Source: Rubrobacter sp.
GTDB lineage: Bacteria; Actinomycetota; Rubrobacteria; Rubrobacterales; Rubrobacteraceae
Length of the DNA: 11,561 bases
Direction of reading: 5' to 3'
Assembly (NCBI GenBank): GCA_019247245.1
Contig: JAFAPF010000007.1
Location: 1 to 11,561 of the forward strand
Below the pieces are notes generated by a model. That model ran no database searches. It saw nothing but the letters and a program-made list of their open reading frames with translations, and was not told the DNA's origin. A program made the position numbers and the translations under genes. Within the stretch, counting starts at the first letter, position 1; the number at the start of each line of letters is the position of its first letter. Below, in pieces: positions 480 to 11,561 of the stretch.

Positions 480-1931
480 TTAATTGCTCCGAGCATAATC
501 AACAGACCTAGCACTACCAGGCGCCTGCACTAAAAGCTCAGCGTCTGGTCCTACCTGTGCTTTAAGGACCTTCCTCAAAAGGTCCCCAAACCGGGTCTCG
601 ATGTACTCAAGGGCAAAATTGTTAGGAGCCTCAAGTACCAGCGTGGCATCTTTGAAGGCTGTGGGAACCATACTCTCAAACCATACGTTTACGCTTGGGC
701 TCCTCACTTCCTCAGACAACACCGCAACAAGCGGCTCCCATACCTTCGCGGCGTGAGCATCGGCAGCAGGAGGCGAGACAGCTTCTGCCTCGGCATCCCT
801 TGCAAGCTCGTCTGGCGGGGGTTCCTGCTCCTTTGTGAAGGTGGCGAGAGAAGCAGGAGCGGGCATGTCAAGCTCCGGAGCTTGTTCTATAGCCCAGCGA
901 AGCCAGCCAGCTCGGTTGCGGATGTTCTTTTGAAATGCAACAGCTTCAGAGTACCGGATGCACCGCTCCGGGCCGTGCTTCCCTACGAGCTCCAAGGCGA
1001 CATCGAGGCGAACTCCTTCGGCCTTGAGGCGCTCAACTGCAATCTGGACCTCGGGGGACGGATCTAGCTGGAGCGGTGGCCGCCGCTTCGAGAACCCCTC
1101 TTGAATTTCGTAGCACACCAGGTGGCTGCCGCCTGGCGTCTTTCGGTAGGTCACCCGCTCCAAAAACCCCTTACAACAGAGCTCCTCATGCGCGGGGGCA
1201 AGCTTCTCCTTGATCTTGGACGGGTACTTATACGGGCTTAAGGGGATGCGATCTCTTAGGGAGAAAAGATCAACCTCCCACCTCCTCTGTTGATTGCGCT
1301 TCTTATCCACAAACCGATAGAGACGCTTTGCAACGGAGGAGTTAAGTGACCAGTAAAAGTCTGCATCCAGACCCTTCAGGTAGTTAGCCTTATAGGACTC
1401 AACGAAGTAGTCAGAGAGCTTGACCCACGTCTTCTCCCCTCTTCTTCCCGAGCCATCTGTGCTTTCAGAGTGTTGTACCCTGTCAAGGAGGTGGAAGGTA
1501 TCATCTAGGTAGGACTTGGTGCTCTTGCGGTAGAAAGCGTTTTTACTCTGGACGCTGGTGCCTGAAAGCCGCTCTAAGGACTCCTTTACCTGGCGATAGT
1601 CTCTCCCCCCATGCGTCCGGCGCAACAGCTCGACAAGCTCGTAGAGGGAAAAGCCGATCCAGCCGTCTTCTGGAACGTCTCCTTGGCGATCCACCAGCTG
1701 CAATAGGGCAACGTAGACATCTTGGTCAAGCGTGCCCGGCAATCCCAACCCTTGCACCGCCCTCACCGTCCAGGTCTGCCTGAGTTCCTGACCATCACGG
1801 GTGCGGATGGTGTTGGTGTACTGGATTACCCCTTCTCCCCTCCTCTGATTGCCTACTGTGAAGTACGGGTGATCCTCGAAGTTCCCCTCAGCCTTTACCA
1901 GAAAGGTTCTCTCTTCTTGCTTGGTAACCAC
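480..1931 (-). CDS. Plasmid replication initiator (RPA family) with C-terminal DnaA domain I-like module
   Basis: This 483-residue protein is likely the plasmid initiator that binds the iterons upstream of it. Residues about 50-275 match the Replication initiator protein A pattern: GLGLPGTLDQDVYVALL (61-77), KESLERLSG (116-124), RLYRFVDKKR (203-212) and KLAPAHEEL (243-251). Residues 290-350 form a helical segment ending in NRAGWLRWAI (339-348), a kind often seen in plasmid Rep proteins. After a Pro/Ala-rich linker (about 355-393), residues 396-470 resemble the DnaA N-terminal domain: VWEPL, VNVWFESMVPTAF, LVLEAPNNFALEYIETRF. In DnaA that domain binds DnaB helicase and partner proteins. The start is GTG at 1931, with AAGGGGAG five bases upstream (1937-1944). 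It is transcribed away from the iterons. The family call is strong; the helicase-loading role is inference. Confidence 0.88.
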   Translation of the reverse strand: MVTKQEERTFLVKAEGNFEDHPYFTVGNQRRGEGVIQYTNTIRTRDGQELRQTWTVRAVQGLGLPGTLDQDVYVALLQLVDRQGDVPEDGWIGFSLYELVELLRRTHGGRDYRQVKESLERLSGTSVQSKNAFYRKSTKSYLDDTFHLLDRVQHSESTDGSGRRGEKTWVKLSDYFVESYKANYLKGLDADFYWSLNSSVAKRLYRFVDKKRNQQRRWEVDLFSLRDRIPLSPYKYPSKIKEKLAPAHEELCCKGFLERVTYRKTPGGSHLVCYEIQEGFSKRRPPLQLDPSPEVQIAVERLKAEGVRLDVALELVGKHGPERCIRYSEAVAFQKNIRNRAGWLRWAIEQAPELDMPAPASLATFTKEQEPPPDELARDAEAEAVSPPAADAHAAKVWEPLVAVLSEEVRSPSVNVWFESMVPTAFKDATLVLEAPNNFALEYIETRFGDLLRKVLKAQVGPDAELLVQAPGSARSVDYARSN

Positions 1932-1963: not shown

Positions 1964-2045
1964 CACATCCTTAAACACTCTTCAAACAGGGACGACGCTT
2001 GTTTTGGAAAAACATTGTCATTTGCAGGAAAAACCTCTCACATAT

Positions 2046-2199
2046 TTCCTCCGAAGCCCGGTATTATTTCCTCCGAAGCCCGGTACCTTCCCTCAAAGCC
2101 CGGTATCGCTTCCCCCACTACCCGGTAAGTCGAGCAGTTTTTACTGGGGTTTGAGGGAGAACCGAATGATGCGACGAAACCTTCCCCCCAAGCCCGGTA
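2046..2199 (+). repeat. Iteron group A: five 18-bp direct repeats
   Basis: Copies start at 2046, 2068, 2088, 2110 and 2182, and each is 18 bp. The consensus over both groups is TTCCCCCAAAGCCCGGTA. The 3' part CCCGGTA is identical in all copies; variation is confined to the middle (CTCCGAAG, CCTCAAAG, CCCCACTA, CCCCCAAG). The first four are packed 20-22 bp apart, two helical turns; the fifth is 72 bp further on. Confidence 0.88.
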
Positions 2200-2506
2200 T
2201 CAAGCGTGTAGCAAAGTACAGGACAAACCGTAGGGTCTAGGTTGAGGTACAACTCATAGATGTAAAGAACTTTGAGGCATGGTTGGGTGAAAATTGCAGC
2301 ATATTACGTCTCACTGTGTCTCAAAGACTTCTGAAAGTAGCATACACCTTCCCTCAGAGAGCGAACTTCCGCCAAGGGACCATCTCGATAACAGTAAAGC
2401 TGACGTTACACCTCACCTGTGAGACGGTGCTGCGTGGCGCGACGTTCTCTGCGTTGCGCTGGAAATTTTGGTTACACAAGCGGCAGGCCTGTGGCTACCC
2501 ACGTTC

Positions 2507-2599
2507 TTCCCCCGAGGCCCGGTATGTGTAGTACTTTAGAGACGAACGCTTCCCCCAAAGCCCGGTACACCCGCTCGTGCGTTCCCCCAAAGCCCGGTA
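2507..2599 (+). repeat. Iteron group B: three 18-bp direct repeats
   Basis: Copies at 2507-2524, 2550-2567 and 2582-2599 have the same orientation as group A. The last two are identical; the first has CGAGG in place of CAAAG. Steps are 43 and 32 bp. A second, looser group away from the promoter-proximal one is typical of copy-control (handcuffing) iterons in other plasmids; that role here is inferred. Confidence 0.85.
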
Positions 2600-4542: not shown

Positions 4543-4848
4543 ATGTTGACCAGACGAGTGAGTGCGAAAGAAGCGCGTTCCAATTTCAGTGATCTGTTAG
4601 GTTCCGTCTATTACGGCGGCGATCCGGTAATTGTCGAGAAAAAAGGCCGTCCCTTTGCTGTTCTCATTAGCCCTGAGGACTTCGAGCGCTTCCAGCAGGT
4701 TGCAAAAGAGCAGTTCTTTGAAACAGCACGAGAAATTCAGCAGGCCAACCAAGACGCTGATCCACAGGAAGTTCTTCGGGACGTGACGGAAGCGGTAGTG
4801 GCTGTTCGCCAAGAGGAGTATGCAGGCAAAGCTACGCGTCGTCCTTGA
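4543..4848 (+). CDS. Phd/YefM-family antitoxin
   Basis: This 101-residue protein fits the Phd/YefM fold: RRVSAKEARSNFSDLL (4-19), where the N-terminal part dimerises and binds the operator, then PVIVEKKGRPFAVLISPEDF (28-47). The C-terminal half, rich in Gln, Glu and Ala, would wrap around and block the toxin. It would repress its own promoter and be degraded faster than the toxin, as is known for the family. The Shine-Dalgarno AGGAGG ends only three bases before the ATG at 4543, so TTG at 4546 or GTG at 4558 are possible alternative starts. It overlaps the toxin gene by 29 bases. Pairing of a Phd-type antitoxin with a PIN toxin is common. Confidence 0.85.
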   Translation: MLTRRVSAKEARSNFSDLLGSVYYGGDPVIVEKKGRPFAVLISPEDFERFQQVAKEQFFETAREIQQANQDADPQEVLRDVTEAVVAVRQEEYAGKATRRP

Positions 4849-5251
4849 TACCAACATCTTTATCAGCGGCTTAATTGCTCCAACAGGTGCACCACGCCAG
4901 CTCCTTGGGCTTTGGGAACAAGGTAGGATTATCCTTCTCACTTCCAGTGCGTTTATCTCAGAGGTAGAACGCATCCTCCACAGAGACCACATCTGGGAGA
5001 AATACCATCTCAGTGAGGAGCAAATTAGTACGCTGCTTCTAAGGCTCAAGCAAACAACCGAGTCTGTAACTCCCTTAAGTCCCCTGTCCCTTCATTCGCG
5101 CGACCCAAAAGACGACAAACTACTCGCCCTTGCGCTTGGGCGCAACGCGGACTATTTGATTACGGGCGATAATGATCTTCTGGTGTTAGACGGTGAGCCA
5201 ACCTTTGCAAACCTGCGCATTATTACCCCTGCGGCGTTTCTTGCATTGTAA
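4820..5251 (+). CDS. PIN-domain toxin (putative toxin component, PIN family)
   Basis: This 143-residue protein is a likely Mg-dependent ribonuclease. The acidic residues of PIN domains are visible: Asp10 in VVLDTNIFISGL, Glu48 in SSAFISEVERIL, the RDPKDDKLLALAL motif (94-106) with Asp95 and Asp98, and Asp117/Asp119 in ITGDNDLL. The pattern DPxDDKxLxLAL...ADYLITGDNDLL is that of the stand-alone PIN toxin group rather than of short VapC proteins. AGAGGAG lies just one base before the ATG, and the 29-base overlap with the antitoxin gene points to coupled translation. All active-site residues look intact, so the module could be functional as a plasmid stability system. The RNA target cannot be told from sequence. 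Confidence 0.87.
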   Translation: MQAKLRVVLDTNIFISGLIAPTGAPRQLLGLWEQGRIILLTSSAFISEVERILHRDHIWEKYHLSEEQISTLLLRLKQTTESVTPLSPLSLHSRDPKDDKLLALALGRNADYLITGDNDLLVLDGEPTFANLRIITPAAFLAL

Positions 5252-5330
5252 GAAGCTGGTAATAAAGCGCTATATCTCCACCTTGCACTCTTGATTTTTT
5301 GTAATAAGAGAGCAATAATAAGCTAAGTTC

Positions 5331-5371
5331 TGAGAACTTGATTACCCTGTCTGCCAAGTTCTCATTTTTCT
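5331..5371 (+). terminator. Rho-independent terminator behind the toxin gene
   Basis: A perfect 10-bp stem, TGAGAACTTG (5331-5340) with CAAGTTCTCA (5355-5364), has a 14-base loop and is followed by TTTTTCT (5365-5371). It lies 80 bp behind the toxin stop codon. A competing short palindrome, AAGTTCT-G-AGAACTT, overlaps the left arm. Confidence 0.75.
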
Positions 5372-5392
5372 AACCTCGTTTACTCTCTTTGT

Positions 5393-6172
5393 ATGAACAA
5401 CAACACGTATCTTGCCCATTTCGGGGCTCGTTGAAGAGCCTTACTCAGCCTCACCTAACCCGAGGTATCTGTATGTCTCGCCCACCCACAATCTATAGCG
5501 CTTGAGAAAACCAAATGGACGATCACCACCAAACGTGGGCTGGCACTCGTGTTTGGACCAGTTGGTACCGGCAAAACAACCTTGGCTCGGGAACTGGCAC
5601 AGCGTCTTGAAGATAACCCCTCCGTTGGCTACGTCTTTATTACCAACCCCAACTTTCCAACCCCCAATCAGCTTCTTAGGGCCATTAATCAGGAGTTTGA
5701 AGTACCGCAAACCTCAAACAGTTATCTGGATCTTTTGAACATCTTCAAAAACTTCCTGATAACGCAGGTGCTCAAAGACCAGAAAACCTTGGTTCTCATA
5801 ATTGATGAGGCACAGACCCTCAAAGCGCCGCTGCTCGAGCTGCTTCACGAGCTGATGAACTACGAGAGCAACGACCAGAAATTCTTACAAGTCGTGCTCT
5901 TTGCTCAGGAGGAGTTTCGCACAAGGCTGCAACACCCACAGTTTCGAAACCTCGTCAACAGAGCTGCCATGTCCTCTACCCTTGAAAACCTCTTCTACGC
6001 CGAGAGCGTTACCATGCTTCGACATCGCTGGTTGATTGCTGGGGGTAAGGATTTTCCCTTCACAGACAGTGCAATTGAGCAGCTTTACACCTACTCACAC
6101 GGTATTCCCCGCACCCAAGTCATCCTTGCTGATAATGCCCTTCTTGCGGCCTTTGTCAGCGGTCAAACGTAA
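5393..6172 (+). pseudogene. ExeA/TniB-like AAA ATPase with two compensating frameshifts
   Basis: The intact reading frame is 5549-6172 (GTG start, 207 residues) with Walker A GPVGTGKTT and Walker B LVLIIDEAQTL. Family-like sequence continues upstream in shifted frames. From ATG 5393 the first frame gives TYLAHFG. After one surplus base in the G run 5423-5426 the next frame gives LVEEPYSASPNPRYLYVSPTH (in two overlapping parts, 5427-5489). After one missing base near 5489 the original frame resumes with QSIALEKTKW and runs into Walker A. Joined, this is a 259-residue ExeA-type ATPase, the usual size. Such ATPases often act as target-selection partners of DDE transposases, but no transposase lies beside it. 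Either the gene is decayed, or the two homopolymer-associated indels are sequencing errors. A truncated protein from 5549 would lack the N-terminal part. Confidence 0.72.
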
Positions 6173-6399
6173 TTCCGGTAGTATTTCAACGAGTCATAGT
6201 GCTCGATGGGCAGCGCTTCAGCACCCGCTCGGCTCTCGAGTTCAGTAAGGAGCTCACGCTGTCCGGTGGTTCCTGCTTTTACGCTTCGCTTCCCTCGGCG
6301 GAGTCCTGTACCTGATCCTGCCCGATTTCTTCAACCCAAACCATTATTTTCCGGGCTTACTGTAGCCTCTGTGGTAGTTGGTTGAGGGGGTGTAGCAGG

Positions 6400-7068: not shown

Positions 7069-7488
7069 CGTTCTCTCCTGGACGATGCGCTGAGCCTCGT
7101 CTTCTCCTAACCCCTTAGGCCCCTGTTGCGACACGCTTTGCATCTCCTTTTGCTTCTGGGCCCGCTGCTGCCGTTTAGTACTAACGAGCCACTGCGTTCC
7201 GGTTCTCCCCCATGCCTACTACTCTGAACAATCGAAATACCTAAACTCACAGGATAGCAACATGCTCCCTTGGCGCAAGTTATCTCACCCTATCGCTTGT
7301 GGCTTAGGGTTCAAGGTTTGACGCGTTTGGTGAGTGGGAAGACCAAAAGTTTTCGTAAATGTGCCACTTGGCCCGTTTACAGCATGCAATCCTGTACCTA
7401 AAATGTCTAGTAATAGACCATGCGACAAGTGATCTACAGGGGAACGCTACTATACTACTAACTTAGTAGAGTAGTAGAGGTTCTGGAA
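7069..7488. promoter_or_regulatory. Divergent intergenic region with a 15-bp imperfect inverted repeat before the pseudo-receiver gene
   Basis: This region separates the transporter (minus) from the signalling locus (plus) and should hold promoters for both; I found no convincing -35/-10 pair for either. At 7447-7461 and 7463-7477 lie inverted arms matching at 13 of 15 positions around a single C. They end immediately ahead of AGAGG (7476-7480), the presumed ribosome binding site for the start at 7489. The repeat could be an operator or a leader hairpin. A smaller palindrome is GTCTA-GTAA-TAGAC (7405-7418). Confidence 0.5.
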
Positions 7489-9063
7489 ATGAGTGGGATG
7501 ACGGAACGTAGGCTCTTACCTTCAGCGTTCAGCACCCATCTGATCATCGCACTAAGTGCGGCGGCAATTTTGCCACGACAGCGCTCGCTCAGGAGACAAC
7601 TACTTCTGCACCTAAAGTCCGAAGGTATACGTAAAGCAGTACTGATCGTGGCTGCGGTAATAGTTATGTTCGGTCAGTTAGCCCTCGCTGGTAGTCCAGT
7701 GCTCGCTGATGCTCAGTCCCCTCTTAATAGTAACAGTAATACTCAGCCGCAGGGTACTCCAGCAAATGGAGCATCACCTAGCACAGCCCCCAGTGCTACT
7801 CGACAGGGATCCAATACTGGAACCGCAGTGTTAGTACAACAGGGCACTCCAGCAAATGGACCGACCTCACCTGCTAATCAGATCATCCCCACCACTTGCC
7901 CCAATGGACAACACCTAGAGGGTGGTACTTGTGTCCCCGATAGAATCCCTACTCCCACTTGCCCCAGTGGGCAACACCTAGACAGTACTAGCTACAAGTG
8001 TGCCCCTGATCCTCCTCCCACCCCTACCACTTGTCCCAATGGACAACACTTAGAGGGTGGTACTTGTGCCCCCGATAGAATCCCTACTCCCACTTGCCCC
8101 AGCGGACAATTGAAGGACGAAAGAGGCAACTGCGTTAAACCATCTGTTTTCCAGATCATGGACTTCTTCTCTGGGAACCCTCCACAAAAGACACCAGATC
8201 AAAGTCAGCCGCAGCCGCTAACCCAAGGCATCTCTGGATTAACGGCACAACACCCTGGGGCTGCGGACCCTGGGGTTGGTGGAGGCCAGCCGTTAGGAGG
8301 GGGGATGCTTAGCCTCGCACCCCGCAAGTCAACAGATAGCAATAGTCCTCTAAATCATCTCGCCCTTAGGCCCCTCAAGTCGGGCGGGAGCGACAACCCT
8401 CTAAATTATCTTATGGCCATACTTGCAGTAGCAGCCGTTGGCCTTCTGGGCTCGGCACGCTCGATCTGGAGACGTAGATCAACCGATGGGGTTAGCGAGC
8501 ATACTACTATTGACACTCGTGCTGATGCGGTTAAGGCTTTCGCCGACGGTCGCGCTGCTACTAAGGGCGATGGCGGTGTTGGGGGTGGTAGTGCCGGAGG
8601 TGCCGATGGTGGTAGTGCCGGTGATGGAAGCCTAGCTTTGCCAGTAGCAGGTGTACTCCCTTGGATCCCGATTCAACGCACCAGGCTGTTGATAGCTTGC
8701 GATTACTTGTTCGTACTCTCCTACTTGCGTGAGACACTGGAGGGTCAGCCAGACCTCGAGGTGGTCGGCGAGGCCACCACCGCCGCGGAAGCCGTGGAGC
8801 TAACGGAGCGTTTGCACCCCAGGGTTGTCCTGATCGGCTTGCACCTACCACAGACGGATAGCGTGGAGACGATCGCTTCGATCAAGGAAGAGAACCCGGA
8901 TACCAATATTCTGGTTATAGCTACCCAAGACGATGACGCTGCTATCCTGCCGGCCATCGAGGCTGGCGCGACAGGCTACGTGCTCGAAGACTCGCCGCGC
9001 GAAGAGCTCCTTGAGGCTATTCGAGCTGCAGCGCACGGCACATCGGTGTCGAAAACAACCTAG
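7489..9063 (+). CDS. Membrane-anchored, Cys/Pro-rich protein with C-terminal degenerate receiver domain
   Basis: I know of no named family for this 524-residue protein. Residues 48-68 form a hydrophobic signal anchor or signal peptide. Residues 75-300 are rich in Pro, Thr, Asn and Gly and contain four modules of the form CPxGQxL...C, with eight cysteines (137, 148, 158, 171, 182, 193, 203, 215) that could pair if this part is outside the cell. A second membrane segment (307-322) ends in WRRR. A Gly/Ala/Asp linker (330-385) leads to residues 398-518, a NarL-type receiver: TRLLIACDYLFVLSYLRETL and PREELLEAIRAAAHG. Key residues are replaced: the first acidic-pocket Asp by Cys404, the phospho-acceptor Asp by Gly450 (VVLIGLHLP), the switch Thr by Ala478 and the Lys by Glu500. 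There is no helix-turn-helix. It probably cannot be phosphorylated and may bind a partner such as the kinase encoded next. AGAGG lies eight bases before the ATG. Confidence 0.75.
   Translation: MSGMTERRLLPSAFSTHLIIALSAAAILPRQRSLRRQLLLHLKSEGIRKAVLIVAAVIVMFGQLALAGSPVLADAQSPLNSNSNTQPQGTPANGASPSTAPSATRQGSNTGTAVLVQQGTPANGPTSPANQIIPTTCPNGQHLEGGTCVPDRIPTPTCPSGQHLDSTSYKCAPDPPPTPTTCPNGQHLEGGTCAPDRIPTPTCPSGQLKDERGNCVKPSVFQIMDFFSGNPPQKTPDQSQPQPLTQGISGLTAQHPGAADPGVGGGQPLGGGMLSLAPRKSTDSNSPLNHLALRPLKSGGSDNPLNYLMAILAVAAVGLLGSARSIWRRRSTDGVSEHTTIDTRADAVKAFADGRAATKGDGGVGGGSAGGADGGSAGDGSLALPVAGVLPWIPIQRTRLLIACDYLFVLSYLRETLEGQPDLEVVGEATTAAEAVELTERLHPRVVLIGLHLPQTDSVETIASIKEENPDTNILVIATQDDDAAILPAIEAGATGYVLEDSPREELLEAIRAAAHGTSVSKTT
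7891..8110 (+). repeat. Tandem duplication of a 135-bp coding unit
   Basis: A segment of about 85 bp beginning at 7891 recurs at 8026, an offset of 135 bp (45 codons), with only a handful of differences, mostly silent. It encodes the paired Cys modules CPNGQHLEGGTC and PDRIPTPTCPSGQ. A shorter copy event nearby repeats the codons for QGTPANG (7750-7770 and 7840-7860). The high identity points to a recent in-frame duplication. Confidence 0.8.
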
Positions 9064-9412
9064 TAGACGACCATTCGAAGGGGCAAATGCAGCGTCCAAC
9101 CAGCAAGCAGAACTTGTTGGAGAAAATAGGAATAAGATGGGTTTGCCTTTAGCGAGGTGTACTATTTTTGGGGCTTCCGAAGGCAACCGTGATAATGGTG
9201 AACACTTGGAAGTAGAAGCGAGGCAAACAGTACATCCCAGCGTTAAGAGGCACTAAACAGCAGGATGTGAGGACTTCGACTCCGCCAATCGTGGCCTCAG
9301 CGAAGCCTATGTTAGCTAGTAAGCTCTAGTTGCGTATTTCTGTGTCACCCTCAAATGACAAAGTCCAGACTCATAGAGCAACCAGAATGAAACTAAGGTA
9401 GGCTCAGTTAGT
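9064..9412 (+). other. Gene-free gap between pseudo-receiver and kinase genes
   Basis: I looked in all three forward frames for the helix-turn-helix domain that normally follows a NarL-type receiver and found none. The pseudo-receiver gene ends in two successive stop codons (9061-9066). No clear promoter or terminator is visible. The presumed Shine-Dalgarno sequence of the kinase, AAGGTAGG, is at 9395-9402. Confidence 0.4.
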
Positions 9413-11029
9413 TTGAAAACGAAAATGGCCAATGCACGGTGGCGATGGGTTCTCCCCGCCGGTGTGGGAGTAGCGGTCCTCGCTTATGTGTTGGTACAAG
9501 TGATGATAGTAGCTTACATTTTCGTGTTCTCGGTTCTAACGGGGGGCGGGCTCGACAGCGCCCAGCTAAAGAGCTTTGCCGACCTAATGGCCGTCTGGGG
9601 CCTACTTATCCTGAACTCTCTATTAACAGTTCCCGCTGCTGCATGGGTTGCACGCAGGGTTGGCGCAGAGGCTACTTTGCATGGGGTACTGGTAGGTTTG
9701 GTATCTGTGGCCGTTATCCAACTTATCGACCTGCCTAATGGCGCACCGGACTTCAATGACTTAACAAAAATGTTCATTCTGTCGGTAGGAGCTGGGTGGT
9801 TGGGAGGTAGCCTGGCTGATGCTACCCTGCGTGGGCAGAAGGCACTATACCGGGCCAGCCAGGCCATCAACGCAGCCCGCAGTCCCCAAGAGATCGTTAG
9901 CGCCATTGGCCAGCACCTGGCCGACCCTGCAGAGGTGAGCCAGGTAGCCTTGTGGCAAGAGATCTCCGAGGTTGAGGATGACACGTCGATGGATCTCGAG
10001 CTCCTTGCTGCCTGGGCCCCGCGGAAGGCGCAAGCTTGGGAATCCGGACTACGGCTCAACTCGGCCCTGGCGCCAGCGCTGTCTGGGCTCCAAGATCAGC
10101 AGACACCGCTGTTGCTCCGAGCGAGCGAGTTGCCTGCTTCCGAGCGCACCATGTGGGAGCGTCAGGGCATCCGCTGGGCCACCCTGCTACCGCTGATCAC
10201 CTCCAACGATACCCTGGCAGGGACGTTGATGGTAGCGTCGCGGAGGACCGGTGGTTTTTCCAGGAGCACGATGCGCAGGTACCTGACCGTTAGCGCTCAA
10301 GCTGCGCTGGCGTTGGAGAACTTGCGGCTGGTCGAACAGGAACGTCAGGCTGGTGTGCTACGAGAGCGTCAGCGGCTAGCGCATGAGATCCACGACACGC
10401 TGGCCCAGGGTTTCACCAGCATTGTAATGAGCGTCCAGATAGCGGAAGGTACCCTGGCTCCAGACCTGACGGCGCCGGTACGGCAGCTCCTCGATCAGGT
10501 GCGTCTCACCGCGCGCGAAAGCCTGGCCGAGGCGCGGCGCCTGATGTGGGCGCTCAGACCGGAGGCGCTTGAGCACTCCTCGTTACCTGAGGCACTGAGC
10601 AGCCTTGCCGAGCGGTGGTCGGGGGACTGCGAAGTCGCTGCCAGCAGTACCATCATCGGCACGGCGCGCTCGCTTTCCCCAGATATCGAGTTTGCGCTGC
10701 TGCGAGTGGCCCAGGAGGCACTGGCCAATTGTCGTAAATATGCTCAAGCTAGCCAGGTGGTAATGACCCTCTCCTATATGAGCAACCTCGTCACCCTGGA
10801 GGTAAAGGATGATGGTGTAGGTTTCGATCCTGCTCAGCCACCTACCAAGAGAAGTGAACTTAGCGGCGGATTTGGGCTTAAGGGTATGCGGGAGCGGGTC
10901 GAGCAGTTGAGTGGCACGCTCCTGGTCGAAAGTGTGCCCGGAGAAGGCACGACGTTGATGGTTGAGCTGCCGGTGGTTAGGGGACAGCGGTCAGCCGGAG
11001 GCATGGAAGATGTAAAAGCGGCTCCATAA
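9413..11029 (+). CDS. NarL-family sensor histidine kinase with membrane segments and GAF domain
   Basis: This 538-residue kinase has about four hydrophobic segments (roughly 12-42, 60-80, 90-107, 117-133) and a GAF-like domain (about 145-305) ending in QAALALENLRLVEQE. A HisKA_3 dimerisation/phosphotransfer domain follows, with ERQRLAHEIHDTLAQGF (318-334); His327 is the likely phosphorylated residue. The ATPase domain keeps its N box (RVAQEALANCRKYA, 431-444), G1 box (DDGVGFD, 466-472) and G2 box (GGFGLKGMRERVEQL, 485-499). All catalytic motifs look intact. The start is TTG at 9413, ten bases after AAGGTAGG; ATG at 9425 is an alternative. In this family the response regulator usually follows directly; here only a broken piece does. 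The last residues, MEDVKAAP, look more like the start of that regulator than the end of a kinase, so the 3' end may be altered by an indel. Confidence 0.9.
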   Translation: MKTKMANARWRWVLPAGVGVAVLAYVLVQVMIVAYIFVFSVLTGGGLDSAQLKSFADLMAVWGLLILNSLLTVPAAAWVARRVGAEATLHGVLVGLVSVAVIQLIDLPNGAPDFNDLTKMFILSVGAGWLGGSLADATLRGQKALYRASQAINAARSPQEIVSAIGQHLADPAEVSQVALWQEISEVEDDTSMDLELLAAWAPRKAQAWESGLRLNSALAPALSGLQDQQTPLLLRASELPASERTMWERQGIRWATLLPLITSNDTLAGTLMVASRRTGGFSRSTMRRYLTVSAQAALALENLRLVEQERQAGVLRERQRLAHEIHDTLAQGFTSIVMSVQIAEGTLAPDLTAPVRQLLDQVRLTARESLAEARRLMWALRPEALEHSSLPEALSSLAERWSGDCEVAASSTIIGTARSLSPDIEFALLRVAQEALANCRKYAQASQVVMTLSYMSNLVTLEVKDDGVGFDPAQPPTKRSELSGGFGLKGMRERVEQLSGTLLVESVPGEGTTLMVELPVVRGQRSAGGMEDVKAAP

Positions 11030-11133
11030 TTCCAGTAGCACTATTTACAGAGCGGCACACGCGCTTACTACTCGCCAACGAGTACCCCACGGTACGAGGC
11101 AGCCTTCGCAGCATATTCGCCCCTGGTTTGTAA
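11003..11133 (+). pseudogene. 5' fragment of a response regulator, truncated
   Basis: The frame from 11026 reads IIPVALFTER followed by HTRLLLANEYPTVRGSLRSI and FAPGL, then TAA at 11131. This matches the first strand and helix of a NarL-type receiver and is itself similar to TRLLIACDYLFVLSYLRETL at the end of the 7489-9063 product. No start codon exists in this frame. ATG 11003 in the kinase frame (MEDVKAAP) would be a typical beginning if one base were missing at about 11025. After residue FAPG the receiver similarity stops, and about 140 bp on lies transposase coding sequence in the opposite direction. The gene was probably cut by insertion and then decayed. The acidic pair reads Asn-Glu rather than Asp-Asp. 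Confidence 0.6.
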
Positions 11134-11561
11134 CGGCGTAGCACATCGAGAAGGTATGCTTTTCTCATGATACTCGGTAGGATACCGAGCTACCGTCTCA
11201 TACGCCCTTGTTAGATGGTTTCTCAGAAACCCTGCCTCTAGAGCGATTTGCACATCAACTAACGGACGCTGTGTATCCCCGCAGTGCTCGAACCAGCCCT
11301 CGGCGTCCTGGGGCGTGTTAGCATCGAGTGCCCAGCCTACATAGCTTCGAGAAGCATCTCCTTGGTCTCCTGGCTTTCGCTTCCCTGAAGGGAGTTCTTT
11401 AGCTTGGAGAAAACCCCTTCTATGGGGTTGAACTCGGGGGAGTAAGCGGGCAGGAAAAGCAGAGATGTGCTCCCCTCGATTCGATCAGCTTGCAGATGCG
11501 TTCTCCTTTGTGAGCCCAGAGGTTGTCCATGATATGATCACCTCTCCCTTCTTGATCTCGG
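11134..11561 (-). mobile_element. End of a degenerate IS630-type insertion sequence
   Basis: Transposase coding sequence enters from the right edge of the window and ends near 11275. The remaining stretch down to the broken regulator would be the terminal part of the element. It contains two short palindromes, CTCGGTA-GGA-TACCGAG (11173-11189) and GGTTTCT-C-AGAAACC (11217-11231). The exact end and any TA duplication cannot be fixed, because the other terminal repeat lies outside the window. The left limit given is where receiver similarity stops. Confidence 0.5.
11275..11561 (-). pseudogene. IS630-family transposase, C-terminal part, frameshifted
   Basis: Read leftwards from the window edge, the frame gives GDHIIMDNLWAHKGERICKL with the second catalytic Asp (codon at 11525-11527), then IESRGAHL. 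One missing base near 11463 moves the frame to LLFLPAYSPEFNPIEGVF followed by SKLKNSLQ, which holds the catalytic Glu (codon at 11418-11420). That frame meets a stop at 11337-11339, and the rest continues in another frame as YVGWALDANTPQDAEGWFEH and CGD, the usual IS630 C-terminus. With two frameshifts the enzyme is inactive unless they are sequencing errors. The N-terminal part and first Asp are outside the window. The final frame stays open to 11068 without further family similarity. Confidence 0.82.

Follow-up and report, generated by a model that had tools for sequence, protein, structure and literature searches.

A predicted membrane-tethered, aspartate-less receiver of the NarL type in a plasmid-like locus of Rubrobacter sp.

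Can a receiver domain that has lost both its phospho-accepting aspartate and its output domain, and that appears to be anchored in the membrane beside a histidine kinase gene, still serve a function, and which one? The question is raised by an ORF in a stretch of Rubrobacter sp. DNA (the window, i.e., all 11,561 nucleotides analysed), which corresponds to contig C123 in a genome of 3.1 Mb and 548 contigs. A preliminary description of this DNA had proposed that the encoded protein senses something outside the cell with duplicated cysteine modules and docks on the adjacent kinase as a non-phosphorylatable decoy.

Organization of the locus and of the ORF

The features of the window are collected in Table 1. 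The best plasmid matches of the replication initiator were seven Rubrobacter plasmids, with 55.7% identity at best, and the contig, carrying RepA, ParA and seven iteron-like repeats, appears plasmid-like. The ORF remains open for 524 codons. Kyte–Doolittle analysis of its product indicated hydrophobic segments at about residues 9-28 (weak), 50-68 and 308-326, and in a second structure model the juxtamembrane linker formed a helix at residues 338-359 with low confidence (block pLDDT 46-65). The Gly-rich linker, the membrane segment, the duplicated Cys region and the adjacent histidine kinase named in the preliminary description were all found. Pfam detected no histidine kinase domain in the protein itself, which is therefore not a hybrid histidine kinase. 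The Rfam search gave no match.

Table 1. Coordinates of the features identified in the window.
Feature	Coordinates	Strand	Evidence
Plasmid replication initiator (RPA + DnaA_N, DnaA_N C-terminal)	480..1931	-	Pfam, plasmid matches
Iteron-like repeats, 7 copies, TTCCCCCAAAGCCCGGTA type, upstream of initiator	2037..2599	.	Repeat search
Whole ORF, 524 aa: signal-like helix, Cys modules, TM, linker, pseudo-receiver	7489..9063	+	ORF list, Pfam
Hydrophobic segment, residues 50-68, signal peptide or signal anchor	7636..7692	+	Kyte-Doolittle mean 2.45 over 19 residues; helix 32-66 in structure model
Four Cys-pair modules (C-x10-12-C), residues 137-215, duplicated 91-nt unit	7897..8133	+	Hairpins in model, block pLDDT 66-85
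Alternative start ATG (Met273), AGGAGG-like bases upstream	8305..8307	+	Start of P0007 in public gene calling
Transmembrane helix, residues 304-327, then RRR	8398..8469	+	Hydropathy and model; 11/20 aligned residues identical in P0009
Juxtamembrane linker, motif RADAVKAFAxxRAATK	8500..8574	+	15/18 motif residues identical in P0009
Gly-rich linker	8575..8649	+	Sequence
NarL-type pseudo-receiver, residues 396-517: C404, G450, A478, E500, D405 kept	8674..9039	+	Pfam, alignment, structure model
Histidine kinase: N-terminal membrane region (weak DUF3792 match), weak GAF match, HisKA_3, HATPase_c	9413..11029	+	Pfam
Relic, about 20 codons, like start of NarL-type receiver, 32 bases after kinase stop	11062..11121	+	Profile score, tblastn

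The receiver domain and its relatives

By Pfam the C-terminal domain is with certainty a receiver, of the NarL type as had been claimed: Response_reg (PF00072) matched residues 402-512 with E 7.9e-15 (55.4 bits, cut-off 30.2), and the best NCBIfam matches were NarL-type regulators, all of them below their cut-offs. Family profiles, fold matches, the protein search and the tree all placed it closest to NarL-type receivers. The comparison with 17 close regulators confirmed the pocket residues read from the sequence, revealing the changes D404C, D450G, T478A and K500E, with D405 kept. Four of the five active-site residues are thus altered, and the replacement of the phospho-Asp by G450 makes the domain an aspartate-less receiver. 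Structure prediction agreed with the domain search, as residues 401-520 were modelled as a full receiver fold of five strands and five helices with a block pLDDT of 88-97. Among the closest PDB matches of the model are LiaR, VraR and DesR, and DesK–DesR complexes were among the fold matches. The stop codon follows almost directly on helix 5, and no remnant of a LuxR-type HTH was detected in positions 9064-9411, in accordance with the reported absence of an output domain. The GC3 of 0.68 indicates native codon usage and a coding-type base composition of the receiver. Helix 1 (residues 406-416), the usual kinase-docking face of receivers, is heavily changed relative to the intact regulators.

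The search with a 252-aa form of the protein (see below) revealed P0009, a predicted protein of 257 aa from a 3,355-base contig, with 11 member sequences, which aligned with 81% of the query at 57% identity. P0009 has a TM helix with a mean hydropathy of 2.25, the linker motif and a receiver that lacks an HTH; in this receiver Asn replaces the phospho-Asp and Arg the Lys, while the DD pair and the Thr are intact; losses corresponding to C404 and A478 are not found in P0009. The two proteins are sisters in the tree (support 99/94), with the same architecture from the TM helix onwards and the same two key residues lost. Gly450 itself, the conservation of which the preliminary description had raised as a question, is not conserved. 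As the replacements of Asp and Lys differ (G and E in the window protein, N and R in P0009), these losses may have been independent. A search for homologues with the full order of elements had also been suggested; the TM–linker–receiver part of this order was found in P0009, and the association of Cys modules with a receiver did not recur. The membrane-tethered, HTH-less, aspartate-less receiver is, as predicted from the two sequences, a design common to the window protein and P0009, the two members known, and the same arrangement in a diverged relative suggests that the layout has been kept and is not a one-off accident. A decayed and truncated regulator with no counterpart in any other genome, the case named as contrary to the proposal, did not materialize, with P0009 sharing the TM–linker–receiver order, although relatives with an intact Asp and HTH are plentiful.

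Among the matches of P0009 listed for 98 other relatives, all cover the receiver and a few reach upstream; two of the latter, checked by coordinates (G013:C306 and G034:C118), run into a kinase gene. No match of P0009 was obtained in viral_contigs, and none of the 609 plasmid records covered 80% of it.

Next to this pair in the tree (88/74) comes P0010, whose HTH-less receiver, as predicted from a contig of 2,040 bases, keeps both Asp and Lys. In an earlier tree, the window receiver grouped with a regulator from contig C485 of the same genome and with the two receivers of P0001 (support 94/88). A later tree gave 85/89 for the grouping with the C485 regulator and 93/91 for the wider set, with only the pair of window protein and P0009 being starred. 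The branch lengths were 0.52 for the window protein, 0.30 for P0009 and 0.09 for the C485 regulator. The possibility that the receiver is the displaced cognate regulator of the neighbouring kinase was rejected, since it groups with the C485 regulator, P0001 and P0010 instead, and a separate relic lies downstream of the kinase. Out of 51 columns nearly invariant in the 17 intact regulators, 19 were changed in the window protein, 14 in P0009 and 10 in P0010; ten of these columns were changed in both the window protein and P0009, five of them to the same residue.

Judging from the relatives found, the receiver clade is one that occurs in several architectures. P0001 (827 aa, from the protein database) is a single chain with tandem intact receivers, a cyclase and a Ser/Thr kinase, in which a TM helix can also be seen by eye. 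On contig C13 of the same genome (6300-6392, minus strand, locus L084), a receiver end identical in 144/147 nt to the C485 regulator runs into a cyclase and a Ser/Thr kinase, possibly reflecting a recent domain swap or an assembly effect, the contig breaking there. A second aspartate-less receiver, with Gln for the Asp and what looks by eye like an HTH after it, was noticed on contig C130 of the same genome, from position 2878 of the plus strand (L091).

The Cys-rich N-terminal part and the neighbouring kinase

The Cys region contains a 91-nt direct repeat, 92% identical, and the pairs C137/148, C158/171, C182/193 and C203/215. The public gene caller places the start at Met273, giving P0007 of 252 aa, and 272 codons without a stop lie upstream in the same frame. 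Between the two copies of the repeat there are 5 synonymous and 2 non-synonymous changes (P 0.03 for an expected synonymous share of 0.30); these mostly synonymous differences and the 272 open codons would count for coding of the upstream part. The in-frame codon-usage score for residues 1-392 was between -0.30 and -0.07 and never the best of six frames, the score failing likewise on the TM–linker part, which is coding on the evidence of P0009. The GC content at fourfold sites was 39% in residues 1-395 and 66% in residues 396-524 (p 8e-5). Since P0009 has the same TM–linker–receiver join, the join is real and old, and the composition break inside it is therefore not an assembly join. The break was also rejected as proof of a recent fusion, the TM helix and linker lying on the low-GC side yet being anciently joined to the receiver.

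Residues 1-392 compared with 5.8 billion proteins matched only the window's own record and one protein at E=0.09, a weak absence, as the search scored 8000 candidates sharing most words and missed P0009. Similar Cys-pair modules (C-x-x-G-x-H-L...C) were noticed in P0008, a 590-aa entry of the protein database (E 0.09). Searches for homologues with residues 1-392 or the whole protein gave none beyond itself in its own genome, one weak match in 59 other relatives, three weak short matches in 395 other genomes of the phylum (four candidates scored per genome), two weak loci in genome_contigs and none in viral_contigs. The full protein had six matches in the protein database, covering at most 31% of the query; P0009 was missed there because proteins under 288 aa lay outside the length range of the search. 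All eight matches among plasmid records covered the receiver part only, and the TM and linker query matched, weakly, one of the 395 other genomes. A Cys-rich part joined to a receiver was found by these searches in no other protein, and the idea of sensing by the Cys modules gained no support. The Cys-rich outside part is known here alone and its translation is not certain, as the strong internal start ATG at 8305 could exclude it.

The kinase gene starts 349 bases downstream of the ORF, on the same strand. Its core looks normal by comparison with 18 relatives, deviating at 3/52 family-invariant positions (0-6 of 39-58 in the relatives). In 16 of 18 relative loci fetched for their top kinase or receiver matches, the gene after a kinase of this family encodes an intact NarL-type regulator with an HTH; of the two exceptions, L081 shows no regulator over the 11 kb that were read, and L082 breaks off at its contig end. 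No intact regulator was identified 3' of the kinase in the window. The 11062-11121 segment, reading RLLLANEYPTVRGSLRSIFA, reached a profile score of 41.6 against 22.9 ± 2.9 (maximum 33.1) in 300 shuffles, none of which attained it, and 13 of the 17 regulators matched it at the corresponding position by tblastn (E 2e-4 to 0.02). Beyond the relic, positions 11350-11561 of the minus strand resemble by eye the end of an IS630-like transposase. The L081 kinase (4549-6174, plus strand), of the same family, is also an orphan. A C-terminal piece of a second kinase of this family (66% over 52 residues) lies on contig C404 of the same genome (L090, 3-263, plus strand), and no regulator or relic was seen in the 550 bases after it.

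Selection, rival explanations and the proposed role

The pocket loops of the window protein and P0009 were identical at 9/20 positions and the rest of the receiver at 70/99 (p 0.037). By element, identity reached 10/12 in helix 5, 7/9 in helix 4, 8/11 in helix 1, 15/18 in the linker motif and only 1/5 in strand 4; the pocket loop 478-482, with 4/5 identical, ran against the trend. Relative to the 17 intact regulators, invariant columns were changed at 12/20 positions of the catalytic and docking face and at 7/31 elsewhere (p 0.009); for both tests the residue groups were set by textbook loops after sight of the alignment. Of the strictly invariant columns, 15/37 deviated in the window protein versus 0-5 of 37-42 in each intact regulator. 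The dN/dS ratio of the receiver against the C485 regulator was about 0.2-0.25 (dN 0.27-0.29, dS 1.15-1.36), averaged over both branches. Drift of the pocket with the rest kept suits a loss of phosphotransfer with retention of the fold, in which the pseudo-receiver would bind rather than accept phosphate.

Private decay as the only account was set aside once P0009 had been found. Decay in a wider sense, with a once useful tethered receiver now drifting in a rearranged plasmid-like locus beside a regulator-less kinase and the ORF still open since the loss is recent, is less probable than the best explanation given below, and the 524 open codons, the concentration of changes on the catalytic face and pocket, the linker motif shared with P0009 and the coding-type composition of the receiver speak against it. 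It is nevertheless in line with the regulator relic beside the kinase, the long window branch and the further losses C404 and A478. Neutral drift of the receiver alone also agrees with a simulation of its 122 codons (300 runs), in which no stop arose in 46%, 26% and 15% of runs at 29, 59 and 91 random changes, and scores at or above the observed one were obtained in 100%, 22% and 0%; a recent decay phase is thus compatible with the data. A misassembly or gene-calling artefact, with the ORF joining unrelated pieces or only the 252-aa form existing, would fit the difference in fourfold-site GC, the strong internal start and the codon usage of residues 1-392, which does not favour the frame. This is very improbable in view of the TM–linker–receiver join in P0009 and the mostly synonymous differences between the Cys repeat copies.

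The docking of the pseudo-receiver on the neighbouring kinase at the membrane, blocking or tuning it, found no support and is unlikely, even with a receiver of the same family as the partners of that kinase family, the short distance on the same strand, the DesK–DesR complexes among the fold matches and a normal kinase core. The regulator with which it would compete, normally encoded downstream in this family, is a relic here, the receiver falls in another clade than the regulators paired with such kinases, and the adjacency was seen in one genome only. The single promoter-like match upstream of the ORF, at 7376-7404, is no more than the chance number (1.5 expected). Given the extensive alteration of helix 1 and the lack of any link between the clade and this kinase, the decoy form is less likely than a canonical regulator as the partner. 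Similarly unlikely is a plasmid-borne family of membrane receptors, in which the Cys-rich part would sense the outside, the signal would pass through the single TM and juxtamembrane helix, and the dead receiver would capture or release a kinase or a canonical NarL-type regulator, for which the C485 orphan would be an example; if true, this would mean stimulus control without phosphotransfer.

The best explanation, with a probability of about 0.5, is a membrane-tethered pseudo-receiver that would act by binding a partner without phosphorylation. The TM helix and the conserved juxtamembrane segment would hold the receiver at the inner membrane face. Its ancestor would be a C485-clade response regulator of the NarL/DesR type that probably lost its DNA-binding domain first and its phosphorylation site later, keeping the fold. 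NarL-type receivers are described as pairing through helices 1 and 5 (PMC12632262), and binding would most likely proceed through the helical faces of the domain, helix 5 being the best kept helix between the window protein and P0009. The partner, probably a kinase of the same family or a canonical regulator, would be held or sequestered at the membrane. The binding function and the partner, like the direction of the effect and the order of losses, are inferences from the comparisons above.

Common descriptions of aspartate-less receivers or pseudo-receivers, i.e., PF00072 domains without the phospho-Asp and other active-site residues, apply to the window protein, and Asn and Gly are given among the commonest replacements of the phospho-Asp (16% and 11%); however, the combination of a membrane anchor with no output domain is not among the architectures described in the consulted sections of these sources (PMC4395418, PMC12632262), nor did it appear among the titles and abstract openings that the literature searches listed. 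LiaR, VraR and DesR of the NarL/FixJ type share the receiver sequence type and predicted fold, but the window protein differs from them by the missing LuxR-type HTH and the four changed active-site residues. The receiver of the hybrid kinase VirA, carried by a membrane protein, is described as controlling the activation of a regulator by binding it, but it is part of a kinase, whereas the window protein has no kinase domain (PMC4705274). The archaeal MetOD3, a receiver protein likened here by description, is also reported to have a membrane anchor, but differs in lineage and output domain (PMC5847659). The C13 fusion and P0001 also represent the same receiver clade joined to new partners, but the receivers of P0001 keep the Asp and the outputs are a cyclase and a Ser/Thr kinase.

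The idea of pseudo-receivers as binding competitors has already been published and is credited to Collins and Childers, and according to a 2025 review the activation and inactivation mechanisms of bacterial pseudo-receivers remain a mystery (PMC12632262). In the clade described here, the C485 regulator is intact with its HTH, P0010 has no HTH but retains Asp and Lys, and P0009 and the window protein are tethered dead receivers, a series that would allow stepwise tests of the order of losses and of the gain of a new role.
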